Positions 6,215 through 37,160 of a stretch of DNA of 64,000 bases are shown here, piece after piece. This stretch comes from Pectinatus haikarae (GTDB taxonomy: Bacteria; Bacillota; Negativicutes; Selenomonadales; Selenomonadaceae): assembly GCF_015732185.1 (NCBI RefSeq), contig NZ_WIQM01000014.1, forward strand, positions 124,001 to 188,000, in the 5' to 3' direction. The position numbers and the translations under genes were made by a program. Position 1 is the stretch's first letter, and each line of letters begins with the position of its first letter. The notes below the pieces were generated by a model. The model had not been told where the DNA came from, ran no database searches, and worked only from the letters and a program-made list of their open reading frames with translations.

Positions 6215-6454
6215 ACCAGTTTTAAAAAATAACATTTAGCAGTCTATGATGCAGAATAGTAGACTCAGGTATATTTTACAGAAAGCCGATGGTTGATGCA
6301 AATCGGTATATATCTGTTTTGAACTCACTGTTGAGACTTCCGATAAAATCGGCGTTGATAGCGTTAATATTTTGAGTGGGCAGCACTGCTGCCAATCAGG
6401 GTGGTACCGCGATATTATCGTCCTTGGCTTTTGCGCCAGGGGCTTTTTTATTTT
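6215..6454 (+). ncRNA. T-box leader RNA, leucine specifier, upstream of leuS
   Basis: The T-box core AGGGTGGTACCGCG is at 6398-6411. Stem I carries AGTA (5' side, about 6268) and GAACTCA on the 3' side, which places the specifier codon CTC (Leu) at 6324-6326, in agreement with the downstream leuS. The antiterminator pairs GCGAT with ATCGT behind the UGGUACC bulge. The competing terminator is the stem CCTTGGC/GCCAGGG (about 6422-6442) followed by a T run at 6444-6454. Uncharged tRNA-Leu should stabilise the antiterminator and allow leuS expression. Confidence 0.95.
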
Positions 6455-12590: not shown

Positions 12591-13868
12591 TTACACAGAT
12601 TGCTCCAGGTATACTATTTCCTTATTATCGTCATATTCGATAAGTTCAGCATATCTTTCCCAGCCGATAAGCAGCTCAAGCTGCTTTTGTCCTATTTCTT
12701 CTCCAAAGGTTTGACTCTGCAGTTCTTCAAAAAATTCAATATTCATTTGTTTATTGGATTTTGACCGCAGGATGTTTATCATTTTCTGAACGAAGGGAAT
12801 ATGTTCCAAAAGCTGCTGCCTGAAAAGTTTTTTTCTTTCCAGAACTGTTGCTCTGGCAAATTCTACTCCATGCTCGGTAAGTTCAATATCGCCTTCTGTG
12901 ACCTTTGTAAAATGCAGTAGAGCGGATGCTTCTATCAAAGGCAAGAAATCTTCCATATCCATGAGAAATCGATCAGCAAGTTTATACAGATCTATTTTTT
13001 CATTGAGATCTTCCAGCAGCTCCAGAAAACCTGTCAACGCACCTGCCGAAACTGATGGAATGATCAAATCTTTCTTTGTCTGCACGAGCATTTCTGTCAT
13101 CGGTATTTTTTTCTTTGTCATTATCGAATATATCTCATCTACATAAGACAAAAATTCCGGTGATTTTCTGTCTCGCCAGCGCGGCAGAGATATATCTATA
13201 TTTTTAATTATTGTTGCCGGACCGGAAGATAAAATTATGGCTCTGTCGGCCATATAAACGGCTTCCTCTATTCCATGCGTGATCAATACTATTGATTTTG
13301 TCGGTATTTTTTTATCAAGCCACAGTTCCAAAAGATCGCGCCGCAAATTTTCTGCCGTCAGTACATCAAGCGCCGAAAAAGCTTCATCCATGAGCAGTAT
13401 ATCAGGTTCACTGACAAGTGCTCTGCCTATTCCAACACGCTGCCTCATACCACCGGAAAGTTCTTTCGGATAAGCATTTTCAAATCCATCCAAACCAACA
13501 ATATCCAAGACCTGCATTGATTTTTCTCTTTTATACTCCACAGATATTTTTTTTCGTTCCAGCCCCAGCATAACATTTTCTAATACAGTCAGCCATGGGA
13601 ATAAGGCAAAAGACTGAAAAACCATTGCCACTCCCGGATTAACGCCTTTAATTTCCTTGCCCAGATAGGAAACGGTACCGCTGGAGCTCGGAATAAGTCC
13701 TGCAATAATTCTCAAAAGAGTTGATTTTCCGGAACCAGAAGGTCCAAGAACAGCCAAAAATTCGCCTTCTTTTACATGCAGATTTATATTTTCTAAAATT
13801 GTAGAATCAGATGTACCTTTTATTTTAAAAGTTTTATTTATTTCTTTTAATTCCAATAAATTTTTCAT
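12591..13868 (-). CDS. ABC transporter ATP-binding protein with C-terminal AAA-associated domain
   Basis: ATPase of 425 residues: an ABC domain of about 255 residues (Walker A GPSGSGKS, signature LSGGMRQRVG, Walker B ILLMDEAFSALD, H-loop LITHGIEEAVY) of the nitrate/sulfonate/taurine type, then about 150 residues matching the AAA-associated extension (COG4754-like) with DRFLMDMEDFLPLIEA. The ATG at 13868 is chosen because AGGGGTG sits 6 bases before it. An upstream in-frame ATG at 13892 lies inside the permease gene, before that SD. It pairs with the duplicated permease directly upstream. No substrate-binding protein gene is nearby. The M-box leader further upstream links the pair to magnesium status. 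Confidence 0.9.
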   Translation of the reverse strand: MKNLLELKEINKTFKIKGTSDSTILENINLHVKEGEFLAVLGPSGSGKSTLLRIIAGLIPSSSGTVSYLGKEIKGVNPGVAMVFQSFALFPWLTVLENVMLGLERKKISVEYKREKSMQVLDIVGLDGFENAYPKELSGGMRQRVGIGRALVSEPDILLMDEAFSALDVLTAENLRRDLLELWLDKKIPTKSIVLITHGIEEAVYMADRAIILSSGPATIIKNIDISLPRWRDRKSPEFLSYVDEIYSIMTKKKIPMTEMLVQTKKDLIIPSVSAGALTGFLELLEDLNEKIDLYKLADRFLMDMEDFLPLIEASALLHFTKVTEGDIELTEHGVEFARATVLERKKLFRQQLLEHIPFVQKMINILRSKSNKQMNIEFFEELQSQTFGEEIGQKQLELLIGWERYAELIEYDDNKEIVYLEQSV

Positions 13869-13881
13869 TGCTTCACCCCTT

Positions 13882-15624
13882 TTAATCAACATGATATTTT
13901 GTCTGTGCCATATAATACAATCGATGCCATATAAAACGATTTATCAGCACTACTAAAATGCACATGACAGCTATCCCCACCAAAATCCCATTCCAGTCAC
14001 CGGCAGAGGTTGCTGTGCTGATATATGCGCCTATACCTGAAGCAGTGAGTGTATATTTTTTCCAACTGACAAGCTCAGAGATTATACTCGCGTTCCATGC
14101 TCCTCCTGACGCGGTTATAAAACCTGTTACCAAATGCGGAAAAATACTCGGCAATATCAGTGATTTCCACTTTTTCCAGCCGCTCAATTCAAAAATCTCC
14201 GTAGCTTCGATCAAATCATTTGGTATACTCATTGCCCCGGCAATAACATTAAAAAGAATATACCATTGCGTCCCCATCATCATTAACAAAATAGAACCGT
14301 ATTCAAAATTGACATGGTATTCAACAAATAATATTGTAAAGAAGGGAAAAAGCATATTGGCTGGAAAAGAAGCGGCTATCTGCACCAAAGGCTGCATTTT
14401 CGCAGAAAGTCTGGGATTAAGTCCTATTTTAACACCCACCGGTATAGTCCAGAGTGCACCCAGGAAAAGTGCTGCCAATACGCGTCCTCCTGTATATAAT
14501 CCCATGATAAATGCCTGATACAGATCATTGAAGCCTATGTCATACAGCATAAATACAGCCTCTTTTGCCGGTGCATAAAGCTCATACAAAAGAAATAGTG
14601 CAATAAATACTTTACATCCCCTTTGCACAAAATAGCCGGCATTTATACTCACATATGTATGCGGTGCTTTTTCCAACCTATCAAAGAACCACAATATACA
14701 TCTGTTAAAAAAAATACCAATTGGTGCAAATATATGACTGTACAGCCAGTACATTATGAAAGACCTGTATAAAACATTATAGACAAAAGAATCCGGCTGC
14801 TCTTTAGCCTCAGAAAACTCAAGTTTAAAGCGCTGCCCCCATACGATAAGCGGCCGCCAAAAAAGTTGATCCACCAAAAGTATCATAACAAGCATGACCA
14901 GCATAGCATACAGCATTGCCTGTACATTGCCGGATTCGACTGCAACAGCGAGATAAGAACCTATACCCGGTAAATGAATATCTTCACCTAAAACACTGAT
15001 TGCCTCACTGGCTGCCAAAAAAAACCAGCCGCCGCCGAATGACATCATCCCATTCCATATAAGGCCGATAGCAGAAATAGGCAGCTCCAGGCTGATGAAT
15101 CTGCGCCAGGGGTTAAAATGCAGCATTTGCCCGGCTTCTTCCAGATCCTTAGGAATAGTCATCAAGGAATGATAAAAACTAAATGTCATATTCCATGCCT
15201 GTCCTGTAAAAATAGCAAAAATGGAAGCACATTCAACCCCCATCAGGCTATTGGGAAAAGCCGCCATAAAAGCTATTATAGTGGCTGATAAAAAACCCAG
15301 AACAGGAATAGATTGCAAAATATCCAAAACAGGAACCATTACAGATCCTGCCGTTTTCACCTTTGCCGCTATATATCCGTATATAAAAGTAAATAAGAGA
15401 GAAAAGAAAAATGCTATAAACATGCGCAGCAAGGATCTTCCCGCATAATAAGGAAGCATCAGCGGGGAAAGGTCTATATTCAGATGATCTCCCTGAACAA
15501 AAGGAATATTCATCCCCGAACTGAGTTTTAGTATAATATACAGAATTATAAAAATAACAGCAATTATTATTATGTCTGTAAAGGAAAATCTTCTCTTAGT
15601 TAAAGATTTGGTAAATATTTCCAT
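13882..15624 (-). CDS. ABC transporter permease with two fused BPD-type domains
   Basis: Membrane protein of 580 residues made of two homologous permease halves. Each has an EAA-type loop facing the ATPase: EEAGQMLHFNPWRRF in the first half and IEATEIFELSGWKKWKS in the second. About 10 to 12 hydrophobic segments are visible. This is the duplicated permease of COG4986, named for anion transport by homology only. The SD AGGAGG lies 5 bases before ATG 15624 and falls inside a 28-codon ORF that starts upstream. The M-box riboswitch (15771-15930) precedes the transcript. The transported ion is unknown. Confidence 0.88.
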   Translation of the reverse strand: MEIFTKSLTKRRFSFTDIIIIAVIFIILYIILKLSSGMNIPFVQGDHLNIDLSPLMLPYYAGRSLLRMFIAFFFSLLFTFIYGYIAAKVKTAGSVMVPVLDILQSIPVLGFLSATIIAFMAAFPNSLMGVECASIFAIFTGQAWNMTFSFYHSLMTIPKDLEEAGQMLHFNPWRRFISLELPISAIGLIWNGMMSFGGGWFFLAASEAISVLGEDIHLPGIGSYLAVAVESGNVQAMLYAMLVMLVMILLVDQLFWRPLIVWGQRFKLEFSEAKEQPDSFVYNVLYRSFIMYWLYSHIFAPIGIFFNRCILWFFDRLEKAPHTYVSINAGYFVQRGCKVFIALFLLYELYAPAKEAVFMLYDIGFNDLYQAFIMGLYTGGRVLAALFLGALWTIPVGVKIGLNPRLSAKMQPLVQIAASFPANMLFPFFTILFVEYHVNFEYGSILLMMMGTQWYILFNVIAGAMSIPNDLIEATEIFELSGWKKWKSLILPSIFPHLVTGFITASGGAWNASIISELVSWKKYTLTASGIGAYISTATSAGDWNGILVGIAVMCILVVLINRFIWHRLYYMAQTKYHVD

Positions 15625-15682
15625 GGTTTCCTCCTAAAGCTGATTTTATTATTTTTTTTACTATACTCTCGCCATCGTCCAT
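15596..15682 (-). CDS. 28-codon leader ORF overlapping the permease start
   Basis: This short frame was found by reading the leader. It encodes 28 residues (MDDGESIVKKIIKSALGGNH and eight more), starts at ATG 15682 with the strong SD GGAGGTGG (15695-15688, 5-base spacing), and stops at 15596, 29 bases inside the permease gene in another frame. Its codons TTA GGA GGA form the permease SD, so translation of the two should be coupled. It lies between the M-box terminator and the permease. Whether the peptide itself has a role is unknown. Confidence 0.5.
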   Translation of the reverse strand: MDDGESIVKKIIKSALGGNHGNIYQIFN

Positions 15683-15716
15683 ATTTACCACCTCCATAAA
15701 TACTGCTTCATAACTA

Positions 15717-15748
15717 AAATAAACCCTCCTAAGAAAGGCAGGAGGGTT
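15717..15748 (-). terminator. Expression-platform terminator of the M-box
   Basis: Stem AACCCTCCT (15748-15740) / AGGAGGGTT (15730-15722) is followed by TATTTTAG. It lies directly after the aptamer's 3' strand, so it is the likely Mg2+-dependent stop. The U-run is interrupted. Confidence 0.7.
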
Positions 15749-15770
15749 CGCAAGCGCAAAATATAAGCAT

Positions 15771-15930
15771 ATTTTAATCGTCCAAGCTTTAGCACTGCAT
15801 AACGTAGAGTAAAATACTCAGCTATTTCGGGTAATACCTTATTTCGATAAAACCTGTCCTACCCATTGGCATCTCTCGATGTTTCCGGGCAATAGCCTAT
15901 GTTTATTGCAGGAACCTCACCTAACAAAAC
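15771..15930 (-). ncRNA. M-box (ykoK) magnesium riboswitch
   Basis: Read on the minus strand, the segment contains GTTAGGTGAGG (from 15925), TGCCCGGAAACATCGAGAG, ATGCCAATGGGT, and near the end CAGTGCTAAAGCTTGG and CGATTAAAAT. These blocks occur in the same order in the Mg2+-binding M-box aptamer of mgtE leaders. The 3' strand flows into the terminator at 15717-15748. Here it precedes an ABC transporter and not mgtE or corA. It fills most of the 370 bases between the permease and zur. Confidence 0.9.
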
Positions 15931-16050: not shown

Positions 16051-16488
16051 TTACCCCATGGCAATAATTTTTTGACATTGCCGACAATAACCATAAAGCT
16101 CCAAACGATGATTCACAACAGAGAAGTGTGTAGATTCTTCAACACTTTTTTCAAAATCCTCCAAAGGACAATGTTCAAGCAAAACGATTTTTTTGCAGCG
16201 CATACAAATAAGCTGATGCTGATGCGTTTTCGGATAAAGGGAATACACAGACTTGTCATCCAAAAAAGATGTTCGTATCGTTATATTTTTTTCTGTAAAT
16301 TTTTCAAGAACTCTGTACACTGTGGACAGATTTATGGAAGAATCACTTTTTATAGCTTGCAAATAAAGTTTCTCTGCAGTCTGAGGAGTCTGAATTTTCG
16401 CGAGAATAGACAGCAGTAAATTCCGCTGTTTTGTACTTTTCATACCATGTTCATTTAAATAATTTTTATAATTACCGCAATCATCCAC
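16051..16488 (-). CDS. zur: Fur-family zinc uptake regulator (Zur)
   Basis: Fur-family repressor of 145 residues. The N-terminal winged helix includes TKQRNLLLSIL and INLSTVYRVLEKF. The dimerisation domain has HQHQLICMRCKKI and CRQCQK, two CxxC pairs that form the structural zinc site. It starts one base after the znuB stop, as the third gene of znuC-znuB-zur, and faces away from znuA. This context makes Zur more likely than Fur or PerR. The presumed operator is the palindrome at 18057-18077, so the operon is probably autoregulated. Confidence 0.88.
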   Translation of the reverse strand: MDDCGNYKNYLNEHGMKSTKQRNLLLSILAKIQTPQTAEKLYLQAIKSDSSINLSTVYRVLEKFTEKNITIRTSFLDDKSVYSLYPKTHQHQLICMRCKKIVLLEHCPLEDFEKSVEESTHFSVVNHRLELYGYCRQCQKIIAMG

Positions 16489-16489
16489 T

Positions 16490-17296
16490 TTAAATAACCC
16501 TCCCAGATCTTACTATGCGTTTATAAGAGAGAACACAAAGCAGCAGCAGTACTGCATTTATTGCTATTATTCCTCCTGGTGCGGCATTTATCCAATAGGA
16601 AATGATTATCCCGGAAAAAATGTCTATATAACTGAATATTACACCAAAAAGAAGCGTTTTTCTAAAACCCATTTCCAATTGAAGAGCTGCTGCAATAGGC
16701 AGCGCAATCAACGAGCTGATAACTAAAATACCGACAATGCGTATTGAGATAGAAATAGTAGCGGCCACTATAATAGCAAATAAATAGTTTATAAGCCTTA
16801 CATTGACTCCGGCAATAGCCGCTCCCTCTTCATCAAAAACCATAAACATAAGCGCCGAATAAAATTTATAGACCAAAAATAAAGAGACAACACTAAAGAA
16901 CAGTACCCAGTAAAAATCTGTAAGTGTAACAGTCAAAATACTGCCGAACATCAATGAATCAATATTAGCATGCACTAGCCCTGAGCTTAAAAGTGTAATA
17001 GCTATGCCGATGGAAAGAGAAAGAATAATAACAAGTATCAATTCTGCATACGTGCGAAAATGTTTTCTCAACCATTCAATAATAATACTAAAAAGAGAAA
17101 CCATTAAAAAGGCACTCAAAACAGGATTTTGCTCAAAAAGCATCCCCACAGAAATACCGGCCAATGACGCATGTGACAATGTATCCCCCATCATTGAATA
17201 TCGCCGCAAAACGAGAAACATGCCAATAACAGGACATAATGCCGCAATAAAAATAGAAATTAAAAATGCATTCTGCATAAAACTATAGGTAAACAT
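16490..17296 (-). CDS. znuB: Zinc ABC transporter permease
   Basis: Permease of 268 residues of the ABC-3 (manganese/zinc) family with about eight hydrophobic helices. The segment MMGDTLSHASLAGISVGM is the family hallmark, and YLFAIIVAATISISIRIVGILV follows in the second half in two adjacent helices. It overlaps the znuC end by 14 bases and is followed by zur, so uptake of zinc rather than manganese is favoured. Start ATG at 17296 is kept; a second ATG at 17278 is possible. Confidence 0.92.
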   Translation of the reverse strand: MFTYSFMQNAFLISIFIAALCPVIGMFLVLRRYSMMGDTLSHASLAGISVGMLFEQNPVLSAFLMVSLFSIIIEWLRKHFRTYAELILVIILSLSIGIAITLLSSGLVHANIDSLMFGSILTVTLTDFYWVLFFSVVSLFLVYKFYSALMFMVFDEEGAAIAGVNVRLINYLFAIIVAATISISIRIVGILVISSLIALPIAAALQLEMGFRKTLLFGVIFSYIDIFSGIIISYWINAAPGGIIAINAVLLLLCVLSYKRIVRSGRVI

Positions 17297-17966
17297 TTCC
17301 TTTATTCTCTCCTAAATCACTTTTAATATATTCCTTTACATATTGCTCCGGCAGACAGATGTGGCCTTTACCCTTTTCTATGTGATAAAACGCTGTAGAA
17401 TTTTTCAATGCTGCCTGTAGATTATGTTCAACACAAATGACTGTTGTTTTATCCTGTCGATTAAGATGCAAAAGGAAATTATATATCTCAGCCTGACTTT
17501 GTCTGTCTATCCCATTGGAAGGTTCATCTAAAATAAGCAGCTCAGGGTCGCTTAAAAGTGCTCTTGCGATGAATACTTTTTGACATTGTCCCCCGGAAAG
17601 CTGACCAATTAAAGTATTTTCTTCGTTTTCCATATGCAGTAAAGTCAAAACATCGTTTATTTTTTTATTGACATATTTCCTCCTCACATTTTTATAGCAA
17701 TACAATATTTCTTTTACTGTTATGGGGAAGTGTGTATTAAGTTGATTAAAGCGCTGCGGTACGTAAGCCATATTGGCAAAAGAATTCTCTATCGTCCCCG
17801 ATGATGGTTGTAATAATCCTAATATCAAACGTACCAGCGTACTTTTTCCTGATCCATTAGCCCCTATTATTGATATATAATCCCCTGTATTCACCGAAAA
17901 ATTTATATCTTGCAGCAAATTGGGTTTATTGCTGTAAGAAAAATATAAATGCTCTATATTTAGCAT
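17283..17966 (-). CDS. znuC: Zinc ABC transporter ATP-binding protein
   Basis: ATPase of 227 residues with Walker A GANGSGKS, Q-loop VPQRFNQ, signature LSGGQCQKV and Walker B LLILDEPSNGID. The ATG at 17966 is preferred because the SD GGAGG is 5 bases ahead of it; an ATG at 17978 would overlap that SD. First gene of znuC-znuB-zur, transcribed from a promoter whose -35 lies inside the putative Zur operator. Confidence 0.92.
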   Translation of the reverse strand: MLNIEHLYFSYSNKPNLLQDINFSVNTGDYISIIGANGSGKSTLVRLILGLLQPSSGTIENSFANMAYVPQRFNQLNTHFPITVKEILYCYKNVRRKYVNKKINDVLTLLHMENEENTLIGQLSGGQCQKVFIARALLSDPELLILDEPSNGIDRQSQAEIYNFLLHLNRQDKTTVICVEHNLQAALKNSTAFYHIEKGKGHICLPEQYVKEYIKSDLGENKGNVYL

Positions 17967-18035
17967 TGCGTCCTCCATATTTTTTCATATCGACAATATA
18001 CTCTTTTATATTATACTTGACATTTTCCTTTTCTT

Positions 18036-18064
18036 ATTATATCTTTATATTGTCTTAAATGCAA
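18036..18064 (-). promoter_or_regulatory. Promoter of znuC-znuB-zur
   Basis: On the minus strand -35 TTGCAT (18064-18059) and -10 TATAAT (18041-18036) are 17 bases apart. The -35 is inside the palindrome 18057-18077, so bound repressor would block it. Confidence 0.75.
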
Positions 18065-18077
18065 ATAGTTTGCATTT
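18057..18077. promoter_or_regulatory. Putative Zur operator
   Basis: Perfect 9-3-9 palindrome, AAATGCAAA-TAG-TTTGCATTT, centred between divergent znuA and znuC-znuB-zur. It covers the -35 of the latter and lies 27 bases upstream of the znuA -10. Confidence 0.75.
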
Positions 18078-18101
18078 GCATATCACAAAATAAATCTATA
18101 T

Positions 18102-18110
18102 TGGTATAAT
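18102..18110 (+). promoter_or_regulatory. Extended -10 promoter of znuA
   Basis: TGG directly before TATAAT (18105-18110) forms an extended -10; no good -35 is visible, which fits an extended -10 element. Confidence 0.6.
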
Positions 18111-18142
18111 AACATTATCTATTTGAAAAGGATGGCGTTTTT

Positions 18143-19060
18143 ATGAAAAGAATTTTTCTTATTCAGATTTTTTTATTGATTGCTTTATTATCCATGACCG
18201 GTTGCAAGACCGGCAGCGAAGAACAGCAAAGTGCCGGTGAACCAGCAAAAATAAAAATTGCTGCCTCATTTGAAGCTGTCAAAGCCATCACTGAAGCTGT
18301 CGGCGGTGAACACGTCGAAGTTTATTCTATCATCCCTGATGGCACTGAGCCTCACAATTTTGAACCCACTGCCAAGGACCTGATGAATCTGCAAAATGCC
18401 GACTTATTTGTTTATAACGGATTTGGACTGGAAAGTTCGTGGCTTGATAAAGCGCTTTCCTCAACAAATGAAGAAAAAAAACTTACTGTAGTAGAAGCCT
18501 CAAAAGGAGCTGACCCCTTACTTCTTGATGAAAAATCTGATGACGGCAAAGCTGTTACCGATCCTCATATATGGCTGAGCATCAACGGAGCTGAACTTGA
18601 AGCAGAAAACATAAAGAACGCCTTAAATAATGCAGATCCTGCTCATAAAGATGATTATGAGAAAAATTTTCAAGCCTTTAAAAATAGTCTAGATGGATTG
18701 AAAAAAGAATATACTGCTAAATTTGCTGATTCTCAAAGAAAAGATTTCGTAACAGGACACGCTGCATTCGGTTATTTGGCAAAGGATTTTGGCTTAAAGC
18801 AAAACAGCGTTTCAGATGCGCTGCTTTCTGGTGAACCGAGTGCAAAAAAATTGAAAGAGCTCACAGATTATTGCAAAGAAAACAATGTTACTACTATTTT
18901 TGTTGAAGATATGGTAAGCCCTAAAGTTTCTGAGACATTAGCCCGTGAAGTTGGTGCTAAAGCCGTCGAAATATATACACTGGAAAGCCTTCCTGAGGGT
19001 ATGGACTACATTTCAGCACTGAAATACGATCTTGAAAAAATATACGAAAGTCTTAACTGA
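18143..19060 (+). CDS. znuA: Zinc ABC transporter substrate-binding lipoprotein
   Basis: Protein of 305 residues of the cluster A-I metal-binding family. It has a lipoprotein signal peptide with lipobox MTGC (Cys21), so it should be anchored outside the cytoplasmic membrane. Metal-ligand His residues are in EPHNFEPTAKD, DPHIWLS and TGHAAFGYLAKDF, and the fourth ligand is probably the acidic residue in FVEDMVSP. The His-rich loop of classical ZnuA is short here (only DEKSDDGK-like acidic sequence). SD AAAGGATG precedes ATG 18143. Divergent from znuC-znuB-zur with a shared operator. Confidence 0.92.
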   Translation: MKRIFLIQIFLLIALLSMTGCKTGSEEQQSAGEPAKIKIAASFEAVKAITEAVGGEHVEVYSIIPDGTEPHNFEPTAKDLMNLQNADLFVYNGFGLESSWLDKALSSTNEEKKLTVVEASKGADPLLLDEKSDDGKAVTDPHIWLSINGAELEAENIKNALNNADPAHKDDYEKNFQAFKNSLDGLKKEYTAKFADSQRKDFVTGHAAFGYLAKDFGLKQNSVSDALLSGEPSAKKLKELTDYCKENNVTTIFVEDMVSPKVSETLAREVGAKAVEIYTLESLPEGMDYISALKYDLEKIYESLN

Positions 19061-19146: not shown

Positions 19147-19653
19147 TCAGAAAATTTTCTGCCGATATTTTTGTACAGCCTTATAAACCACACTAAAAAA
19201 AATAATATTGATTGGCAGAAAGATAAGTCCTTTTATAAACCGGCTCAGTAAAAAAGTCATTGCTGCTTTATGATAAAGCATACTAAGCCAAAGGGTGTTA
19301 AAAAATAAATCAACAATAACGAATAAAAATATAAAAGTACAGAATATTCGTTTCATTGAAATATTTTTATTATAAAAGCAATAACCGTATACATATCCGC
19401 TAAAAAAAGCACTGAGAGTGAATCCCGGAAAATAAAATCCCGGAGAAAAAAGCATACAGCCGAGTAAATCGGCAGCAGCTCCTACCATACCTCCGTGTAA
19501 AGGTCCGCAAATAGCTGCGTAAACAGCCAATGGTAAAAAGCCAAAACTTATCCGCAGAAATGGTGTTTGCACCGCGAATATATGTGTAAAAAGAATTATC
19601 AAAGCAACAAATATACCATTCAGAACAACCATTTTAGCTTTAAAGTGATACAA
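19147..19653 (-). CDS. folT: ECF transporter S component, folate type (FolT)
   Basis: Small membrane protein of about 168 residues with five or six helices. The segments IRISFGFLPLAVYA (in the first third, actually read LRISFGFLPLAVYA) and GGMVGAAADLLGCM are typical of the folate-specific S component. It binds the vitamin and works with shared EcfA/A'/T units, which are not in this window. The start is placed at TTG 19653: GGAGGTG (19666-19660) lies 6 bases ahead of it, while longer versions would start inside the leader. The THF riboswitch upstream independently supports the folate substrate. Confidence 0.85.
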   Translation of the reverse strand: MYHFKAKMVVLNGIFVALIILFTHIFAVQTPFLRISFGFLPLAVYAAICGPLHGGMVGAAADLLGCMLFSPGFYFPGFTLSAFFSGYVYGYCFYNKNISMKRIFCTFIFLFVIVDLFFNTLWLSMLYHKAAMTFLLSRFIKGLIFLPINIIFFSVVYKAVQKYRQKIF

Positions 19654-19718
19654 AAAAAACACCTCCATATATTTTAGCATGACGTCACTGCATATCAAGA
19701 TGTTTTTCTTTTGATGCA

Positions 19719-19817
19719 GCAGCGGGATGCAATGAATGTACCGCAAGCTTAAAAGCTTTTCGTTCGAATGACAACTCCCCGTTCATCCGACACTTAACGC
19801 ACAGTCACTTACTCTGC
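19719..19817 (-). ncRNA. Tetrahydrofolate (THF) riboswitch
   Basis: On the minus strand the segment opens GCAGAGTAAG, contains GCGTTAAGTG (19800-19791), continues GGATGAACGGGGAG, CGAACGAAAAGC, and closes with ATTCATTGCATCCCGCTGC. These are the conserved blocks of the folT/folE THF aptamer, with GCAG and CTGC as the closing stem. A possible expression-platform hairpin TGCATCAA/TTGATATGCA lies between the aptamer and the SD. Confidence 0.9.
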
Positions 19818-19852
19818 TAAATATTGATTTTTTATAAAGCCATAGTTTAAAT

Positions 19853-36850: not shown

Positions 36851-37029
36851 ACATGATCTTTTTTTATTTTTGAGCTATCCTCAAATTTAAAAATATTTTT
36901 TCATATAAATATTCACCTTTGATATCAAGGTAAAGACTTGAATGAAAAACAAATTATCAGATAAATGCATAAATTCCAGCTTGCTTTTTTTTACAAATAC
37001 TAGTAAAATATACAACATGAGTAAATTAA

Positions 37030-37160
37030 AAACCGAATCCAGCTCAGGAGCGGGGGAACCAATTTTGGGGTGAATGTTGTTTTTTACAAGGGCCGGTTTC
37101 TTCTTCTGTCCCTAATCCGACAGCTAACCTCGCAGGTAATAAAAAAAACAAAGAGAGGAG
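37030..37160 (+). ncRNA. Cyclic di-AMP riboswitch (ydaO-yuaA type)
   Basis: The plus strand shows GAGCGGGGGAACCAA, GGGGTGAAT, and the distal AATCCGACAGCTAACCTCGCAG, here written as AATCCGACAG and AGCTAACCTCG, ending at GAGAGG. These are the conserved blocks of the ydaO aptamer, which is usually an off-switch for cell-wall hydrolases and potassium transport genes. It directly precedes the SD of a NlpC/P60 gene, so translation control is possible. No independent terminator is visible. Confidence 0.9.

Follow-up and report, generated by a model that had tools for sequence, protein, structure and literature searches.

Import of Mg2+ into bacterial cells is attributed to CorA, MgtE, MgtA/MgtB and NrmT in the accessible text of the study that added NrmT to this list (PMC4072509). 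The closest described counterpart of the locus presented here lies in Bifidobacterium breve UCC2003, where an M-box occupies the 5' untranslated region of an ATP-binding cassette (ABC) transporter, Bbr_0406-07, with a COG4986 permease and a suggested part in metal-ion homeostasis (PMC5746004). We analyzed a stretch of 64,000 nucleotides (nt) of Pectinatus haikarae (contig NZ_WIQM01000014.1, positions 124,001 to 188,000), hereafter the window, in which an M-box precedes an operon for an ABC permease and its ATPase (Table 1). This operon probably encodes an ABC-type Mg2+ importer, Mg2+ being the presumed ion, that operates independently of a dedicated extracytoplasmic binding protein; some Mg-linked uptake role for the transporter is very likely. 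Both loci present an M-box-led ABC transporter, COG4986 being the label of the B. breve permease and not one assigned by a tool to the window permease. That an M-box can precede an ABC transporter of COG4986 is already on record, the B. breve report being the only such literature link that we found; its accessible text deals with one locus in one species and contains neither a comparative test nor a leader open reading frame (ORF) (PMC5746004). New here is a short acidic leader ORF between the terminator and the permease start.

Other described systems resemble parts of the locus. NrmT, which is Nramp-related and M-box regulated, received its Mg2+ assignment by way of the M-box, as is done here, and Nramp genes follow M-boxes in the class of P. 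haikarae as well; NrmT, however, has no ABC ATPase and was tested experimentally by its authors (PMC4072509). The term 'ABC' is absent from the accessible text of both this M-box/Nramp study and a 2022 review of Mg2+ transporters (PMC9276622), and a literature search with most subscription journals outside its reach returned, beyond the B. breve report, nothing on M-box-led ABC importers of Mg2+. CmpBCD and NrtBCD are relatives of the permease and the ATPase by sequence and fold, but have half-size permeases (chains of 246-265 residues) as opposed to the fused permease of 580 residues. Both are anion uptake systems that depend on a substrate-binding protein (SBP), as does Fe3+ uptake by FbpBC. 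In FbpBC of Thermus (9j4r), both permease halves lie in one chain, like those of the window permease, at 11% identity.

Table 1. Elements of the M-box-led ABC transporter operon in the P. haikarae window
Feature	Position in window	Strand	Basis
M-box (ykoK) Mg2+ riboswitch aptamer, RF00380	15766..15935	-	covariance-model match
Intrinsic terminator, 11-pair stem then T-rich tail	15721..15749	-	hairpin search and folding, z -3.9
Shine-Dalgarno of leader ORF, GGAGGTGG	15688..15695	-	read from sequence, compared across loci
Leader ORF, 28 codons, MDDGESIVKKIIKSALGGNHGNIYQIFN, ATG at 15682	15596..15682	-	ORF comparison across class loci
Arm 1, leader ORF start region, predicted partner of arm 2	15680..15689	-	RNA folding, duplex test
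Arm 2, first permease codons, predicted partner of arm 1	15610..15619	-	RNA folding, duplex test
Two-half ABC permease (2 x BPD_transp_1), 580 residues	13882..15624	-	Pfam; type-I importer fold
ABC ATPase (ABC_tran and C-terminal AAA_assoc_C), 433 residues as called	12591..13892	-	Pfam; structure matches

The aptamer of the window matches RF00380 over the full length of the model (positions 1-169), scoring 150.4 bits where the gathering cut-off is 44 (E 2.9e-34), and a search of the whole 3.1-Mb genome found no other M-box. A chance match is ruled out by this score and by the conservation of the M-box linkage described below. The terminator sits between the aptamer and the permease gene. An original prediction, made from the sequence alone, had named the M-box, its terminator, the two-domain permease and the ATPase with its C-terminal AAA-associated domain, and all of these were recovered by the dedicated searches; the span it gave, 13868-15930, takes in the permease and the M-box but leaves the ATPase gene outside. 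The ATPase probably starts at 13868, where an in-frame ATG with a ribosome-site-like stretch was read by eye. No SBP gene was found in the permease-ATPase operon among the ORFs and Pfam matches of the window.

Pfam recognizes in the permease only BPD_transp_1, twice, and in the ATPase ABC and AAA-type families. The predicted model of the permease, with a predicted local distance difference test score (pLDDT) of 77, has FbpBC as its best whole-length structural match (Z 20.3, root mean square deviation (rmsd) 6.3, 421 residues aligned), and matches the CmpBCD permease chain with Z 16.6 and rmsd 3.5 over 226 residues. The ATPase core (predicted model, pLDDT 92) matches the CmpBCD and NrtBCD ATPases with Z of about 31, the list covering residues 10-263. 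In these models both proteins adopt the type-I importer fold, which suggests import. The scores stay far below the equivalog cut-offs of NtrB (62.9 bits vs 209.05) and TauC (40.3 vs 342), and no homology of either protein to CorA, MgtE, MgtA or NrmT was found in Pfam and profile scans. In an alignment of 99 permeases, D101, E131, E207 and E517 are invariant across the rows compared; E517 is not Mg-specific, because it is aligned with a Glu of CmpB and NrtB. The AAA_assoc_C tail returned two weak and implausible matches (E 0.002 and 0.04) in a PDB sequence search, which were discarded.

The link between permease and M-box was followed in a class set of 380 genomes (26 with the permease), in a smaller class sample of 200 genomes (15 with the permease), and in a named-genome set, partly overlapping with the class set, that supplied the best 80 of more than 80 loci. 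Among relatives the permease occurs in 11 of 59, and an M-box over threshold is present at 8 of those 11 loci. The smaller class sample has a same-strand M-box ending 141-204 nt before the permease in 11 of 15 cases (coordinates read by eye), and the fuller class set has one upstream of the permease at 18 of 26 loci. An M-box anywhere in the genome goes with the permease (12/15 genomes with it vs 30/185 without; Fisher p 5e-7, kinship ignored). Beyond the class, the permease occurs in 2 of 391 genomes of Clostridium's class, both with an M-box ahead of it, and one of these recurs as the Clostridium among the best 80 loci. Ten of those 80 have an upstream M-box, in Pelosinus, two Paenibacillus, Alicyclobacillaceae, another Bacillota, Clostridium, Anaerolineae, Ktedonobacteria and two Nocardia. 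Searched with stricter filters that may miss weak M-boxes, 79 genomes of the named set (50 and 29) yielded any M-box in 15 (13/50 and 2/29), of which 11 have one at the permease locus; the Streptomyces locus L060 has an M-box on each flank. On a tree of the 99 permeases (quick method, arbitrary root), rows with an M-box are found among Anaerolineae, among Nocardia and in a group made up mostly of Bacillota.

The other genes behind M-boxes in this class have a common theme. Fifty-two M-boxes were found in the class sample and 30 were taken as loci, the first ORF being MgtE in 18, Nramp in 5, a permease of the window type in 5 and a P-type ATPase in 1; in the remaining locus, L125, the first ORF was probably miscalled, as read by eye. 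M-box targets in the class thus otherwise belong to Mg2+-transporter families. In P. haikarae itself no match to MgtE was found in the genome, and no P-type ATPase exceeds the Mg2+ cut-off (best piece 60.9 bits vs 610.75); a single CorA gene is present, without a preceding M-box. Before 10 permease copies that lack an M-box, the only other riboswitch found was an S-adenosyl methionine (SAM) riboswitch on the opposite strand in L020. A search for viral carriage gave 21 pattern matches, none of them a relative. As separate observations, the permease of genome G002 is split into two overlapping ORFs behind the M-box (L007 and L014), through a frameshift or an assembly error, and one genus of the class (g35) has tandem M-boxes before mgtE-type genes (L123, L124, L126, L127), the leader ORF lying some 400 nt downstream of the first aptamer.

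Gene neighbors add support that the original prediction did not have, as does the likeness of the leader ORF to that of mgtE loci. By BLAST, Mg2+ genes stand beside the pair in 11 of the 80 best loci, and all 11 belong to the 19 actinobacterial rows of the tree, so that 11/19 actinobacterial loci have mgtA, mgtC or Nramp next to the pair: mgtA at six (L061, L066, L068, L069, L078, L090), mgtC at six (L061, L068, L071, L075, L080, L090) and Nramp at two (L049, L060), the last about 600 nt off and in one case behind its own M-box. Most of these genes adjoin the pair directly and share its strand, exceptions including L090, where mgtA and mgtC both lie on the other strand. The two Nocardia loci run M-box, mgtC, permease, ATPase. 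Two neighboring MgtA exceed the TIGR01524 cut-off (924.6 and 919.1 vs 610.75), the MgtC of L071 and the Nramp of L049 and L060 exceed Pfam cut-offs, and the MgtC of L061 scores 200.6 with MgtC models, short of the equivalog cut-off of 255; the remaining neighbors are assigned by BLAST only. P-type matches in L018 and L047 were weak (22 and 26% identity) and were not counted.

No other gene accompanies the pair regularly. Same-strand ORFs within 500 nt number 77 in the 80 loci; 71 were tallied in Pfam, the longer ones also being scanned singly, and six were left out as overlapping, likely miscalled or treated separately (L041:7604-7969, L071:6999-7724, L078:5155-7803, L086:6485-7807, L090:7374-7781, L095:2455-5697). 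Within the tally there is no recurrent third gene, no Pfam family occurring in more than two of the 71 ORFs (25 of 116 families listed), and no recurrent biosynthetic or catabolic partner. SBP_bac_3 is found in two of them: the ORF of L036 also has an ion-channel domain, and in L017, an M-box-less locus, the gene lies two genes downstream on the same strand. There, the downstream stretch L017:11210-15462 holds a URO-D-like gene, the SBP_bac_3 gene, a permease-sized ORF and a second ABC ATPase; since the SBP precedes another permease-sized ORF and ATPase, it probably serves its own system. The original prediction would have been undermined by relatives lacking the M-box and carrying a linked anion SBP, and what the relatives present is an M-box that is mostly kept and no recurrent SBP. 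Its proposal of uptake of Mg2+, a related divalent ion or an Mg-linked solute without an SBP draws support from conservation and gene neighbors. A cytochrome c and DsbA cluster near the Legionella and Magnetospirillum loci was considered and set aside, having no Mg2+ link. In both Candidatus Cryosericum genomes an H+-pyrophosphatase gene follows the ABC pair (L076:5777-7747, L079:11147-13117).

In the mechanism that we propose, the single permease polypeptide would supply both membrane halves, would be driven by a pair of ATPase subunits and would need no SBP acting in trans. At high cell Mg2+ the M-box would fold, the terminator would form and the operon would be off; at low Mg2+ transcription would pass the terminator and the operon would be on. 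As the M-box would turn the importer on at low Mg2+, the cargo should be Mg2+ or something that spares Mg2+; a simple Mg2+ complex is less likely than Mg2+ itself.

Several observations weigh against Mg2+ as the cargo. Eight of the 26 class loci have no M-box (G018, G026, G056, G214, G230, G239, G277, G458), that of G277 being on another contig and not at the permease pair, and four further permease genomes (G064, G065, G075, G091) have their M-box elsewhere than at the pair. As many as 61 of the 80 best loci have neither an upstream M-box nor an Mg-transport neighbor, including all those of Cyanobacteria, Legionella and Burkholderiales; genome-wide searches in these three groups turned up no M-box, so their cargo could differ. 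In a sequence search against solved structures only the permeases CmpB (bicarbonate) and NrtB (nitrate) pass, and type-I importers normally need an SBP. Such relatives are the starting point for the reading, which we consider unlikely, that Mg2+ is only the regulatory signal and that the transporter takes up another solute needed when Mg2+ is scarce, for instance an anion, a polyamine or an Mg-chelate. The mgtC genes adjoining the pair in 6/80 loci can be counted in its favor, MgtC not being itself established as a Mg2+ transporter. A comparable case is the M-box operon of pe20 in Mycobacterium tuberculosis, which according to the accessible text carries mgtC and PE/PPE genes in place of a classic transporter and whose authors suggest a part in Mg2+ transport (PMC12810186). 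This other-solute reading is opposed by the other M-box targets of the class, which are of Mg2+-transporter families, and by the lack of any recurrent biosynthetic or catabolic partner or SBP among the flanking ORFs.

An SBP encoded elsewhere in the genome would make the pair an ordinary SBP-dependent importer of an Mg-linked ligand, a reading that overlaps with the previous one and that we hold to be improbable. Some ABC importers do use unlinked SBPs, and L017 has its SBP_bac_3 gene close by; yet permease and ATPase keep each other's company across phyla with no third gene joining them regularly, and the SBP gene of L017 lies upstream of another permease-sized ORF and a second ATPase. Import of a different divalent cation (Mn2+, Fe2+, Co2+ or Zn2+), with an M-box variant that senses or tolerates that cation, could account for the Zn-type uptake operon with a Fur-family regulator that adjoins the operon, and for a ferric importer, FbpBC, being the best whole-length structural match and sharing the fused-permease layout. 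We regard it as very improbable: the aptamer is full length and high scoring, the linked metal genes in relatives are mgtA, mgtC and Nramp, and Mg2+ transport was demonstrated for Nramp homologs under M-box control (PMC4072509). The preferred reading stays that of an SBP-free ABC importer of Mg2+.

The leader ORF is a second recurrent element. It overlaps the permease start by 29 nt in a different frame, and counterparts occur at 23 of the 26 class loci, 21 by a ribosome-site rule and two more, in the nearly identical G027 and G340, once the rule is relaxed; all 23 extend past the permease start. At least two acidic residues occupy positions 2-6 in 20/26 loci, G018 and G026 having one and G052 none, and no such leader ORF was found in G056, G214 and G239. 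It is kept in five of the eight class loci without an M-box. At 16 of the 18 M-box mgtE loci an ORF starts MD[SDT][GD]P (several are near-copies, and five have GTG starts), and in 15 of these 16 the ORF end is no more than 30 nt away from the mgtE start as called. The Nramp-like target loci L129, L130, L133, L137 and L138 have no MD[SDT][GD]P ORF; the ORF of L137 starts METQGT. As an isolated case, the lone corA gene of P. haikarae (L015, about 1310-1432; genome G000, contig C6) has a 14-codon acidic leader ORF, MDADHPRRCFYTIE, 122 nt before the called start, with a ribosome-site-like stretch and no M-box.

Similar devices have been described elsewhere. In Salmonella mgtQ, acidic codons 2 and 5 lower mgtQ translation and raise mgtB translation through alternative pairing (PMC8092293). 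The window leader shares with mgtQ a short ORF with a strong ribosome site ahead of a transporter of Mg2+, presumed in the case of the window, and acidic codons 2 and 5, and is predicted to pair with the downstream start, as mgtQ does; mgtQ differs in having 8 codons, no overlap with the next gene and a PhoP-dependent promoter, and no M-box is mentioned in the accessible text (PMC8092293). The uORF Rv1805A of the M. tuberculosis pe20 M-box is likewise a conserved small ORF after an M-box, the likeness drawn here being that of position, and its peptide is called specific for mycobacteria (PMC12810186). Our literature search, with the same restriction on subscription journals, found no paper on a cross-phylum M-box leader peptide. 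By analogy with mgtQ, the leader start region would pair with the permease start, and at low Mg2+ ribosomes slowed or destabilized on the acidic leader codons would keep this pairing open and allow more permease translation; the leader effect may also be of opposite sign. MgtL and intrinsic ribosome destabilization are a further parallel. The arm 1/arm 2 stretch of the window folds at z -1.7, and at 22 loci (near-copy G027 omitted) leader-permease duplexes average -15.8 with their own partner, -13.9 with partners from other loci and -12.0 with shuffled ones; singly, 12 of these 22 related loci fall below 0.05 and ten do not. The partner site lies at differing codons across groups, which hints that pairing may be maintained.

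Could the leader ORFs be by-products, arising by chance downstream of a strong ribosome site or reflecting an element that acts at the RNA level only? In favor of this, the motif was tested only after it had been noticed, the leader start regions are also partners in the predicted RNA pairing, and control upstream ORFs themselves lean to in-frame AGT (71/151 triplets). The patterns were seen before testing and the loci are related, so the following counts are descriptive only. The motif M[DE].[GSD][PSG] follows the aptamer at 47 of 100 M-box loci from several phyla (40 shuffles: mean 0.7, max 4), and M[DE].[GSDN] occurs in 14 of 30 Bacilli loci that were retrieved once the pattern had come to notice, a number of the 14 being near-copies. 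At 74/101 M-box loci there is an ORF whose second residue is Asp or Glu, in a few cases probably by chance, and Asp2 is written by both GAT and GAC. Across 55 distinct leaders, the first 12 codons contain AGT 85 times in the reading frame and 10 times outside it; AGT encodes 85 of 125 leader serines against 15.9 expected from downstream genes, and 35/42 against 2.0 at 13 high-GC loci. In-frame AGT in codons 3-10 is seen at 63/101 M-box loci vs 34/664 control stretches, and its combination with Asp/Glu at position 2 at 57/101 vs 3/664. These contrasts, with the use of both Asp codons, speak against the by-product reading, which we judge to have little chance of being correct. Working against the proposed leader action are the scarcity of the leader outside the class, where a strict rule finds an acidic leader in 7/79 best loci (control 23/660), and the near relatives G002, G003 and G004, whose leaders have no AGU codons, that of the window having one; with no AGT in codons 3-10 of these three, an AGU-codon rule for every leader fails in the window's genus and was dropped. 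That the leader ORF is a translational Mg2+ device, as the mgtQ analogy would have it, is a serious possibility that falls somewhat short of probable. In a group of high-GC M-box leaders (L168, L171, L181, L183, L185, L189, L193, L224, L226, L231, L240) the early serines are nearly all encoded by AGU, a rare codon in the downstream genes.

The surroundings of the operon hold further regulatory elements. On its M-box side lie a Zn-type ABC uptake operon, a Fur-family regulator and a divergent ZnuA of its own (window 16051-19060), followed by a tetrahydrofolate (THF) riboswitch directly 5' of an energy-coupling factor (ECF) S component, probably of a folate transporter (19147-19818). The + strand of the window carries a T-box leader and a cyclic di-AMP (c-di-AMP) riboswitch (6237-6428 and 37021-37153).

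With the M-box, the leader gene and the Mg-gene neighbors in other phyla, the transporter is probably an unrecognized type of bacterial Mg2+ importer; in the P. haikarae genome no gene pair other than this permease and ATPase was found behind an M-box. A wider and more tentative proposal, which we would put at no better than one reading among several, is that of a primary-active, SBP-free ABC Mg2+ pump under dual control, by the M-box in transcription and by a ribosome-based Mg2+-sensing leader peptide with Asp/Glu at position 2 and AGU serine codons in most lineages, such leaders preceding unrelated Mg2+ transporters in several phyla, some of them without an M-box. If the transporter does import Mg2+, an ABC-type importer found in many phyla would be an added class of Mg2+ importer, and a cargo would be assigned to a family in which the relatives of solved structure transport nitrate or bicarbonate. 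If the leader is indeed common to M-boxes before unrelated genes, the Mg2+ riboswitch would often be paired with a translational device.

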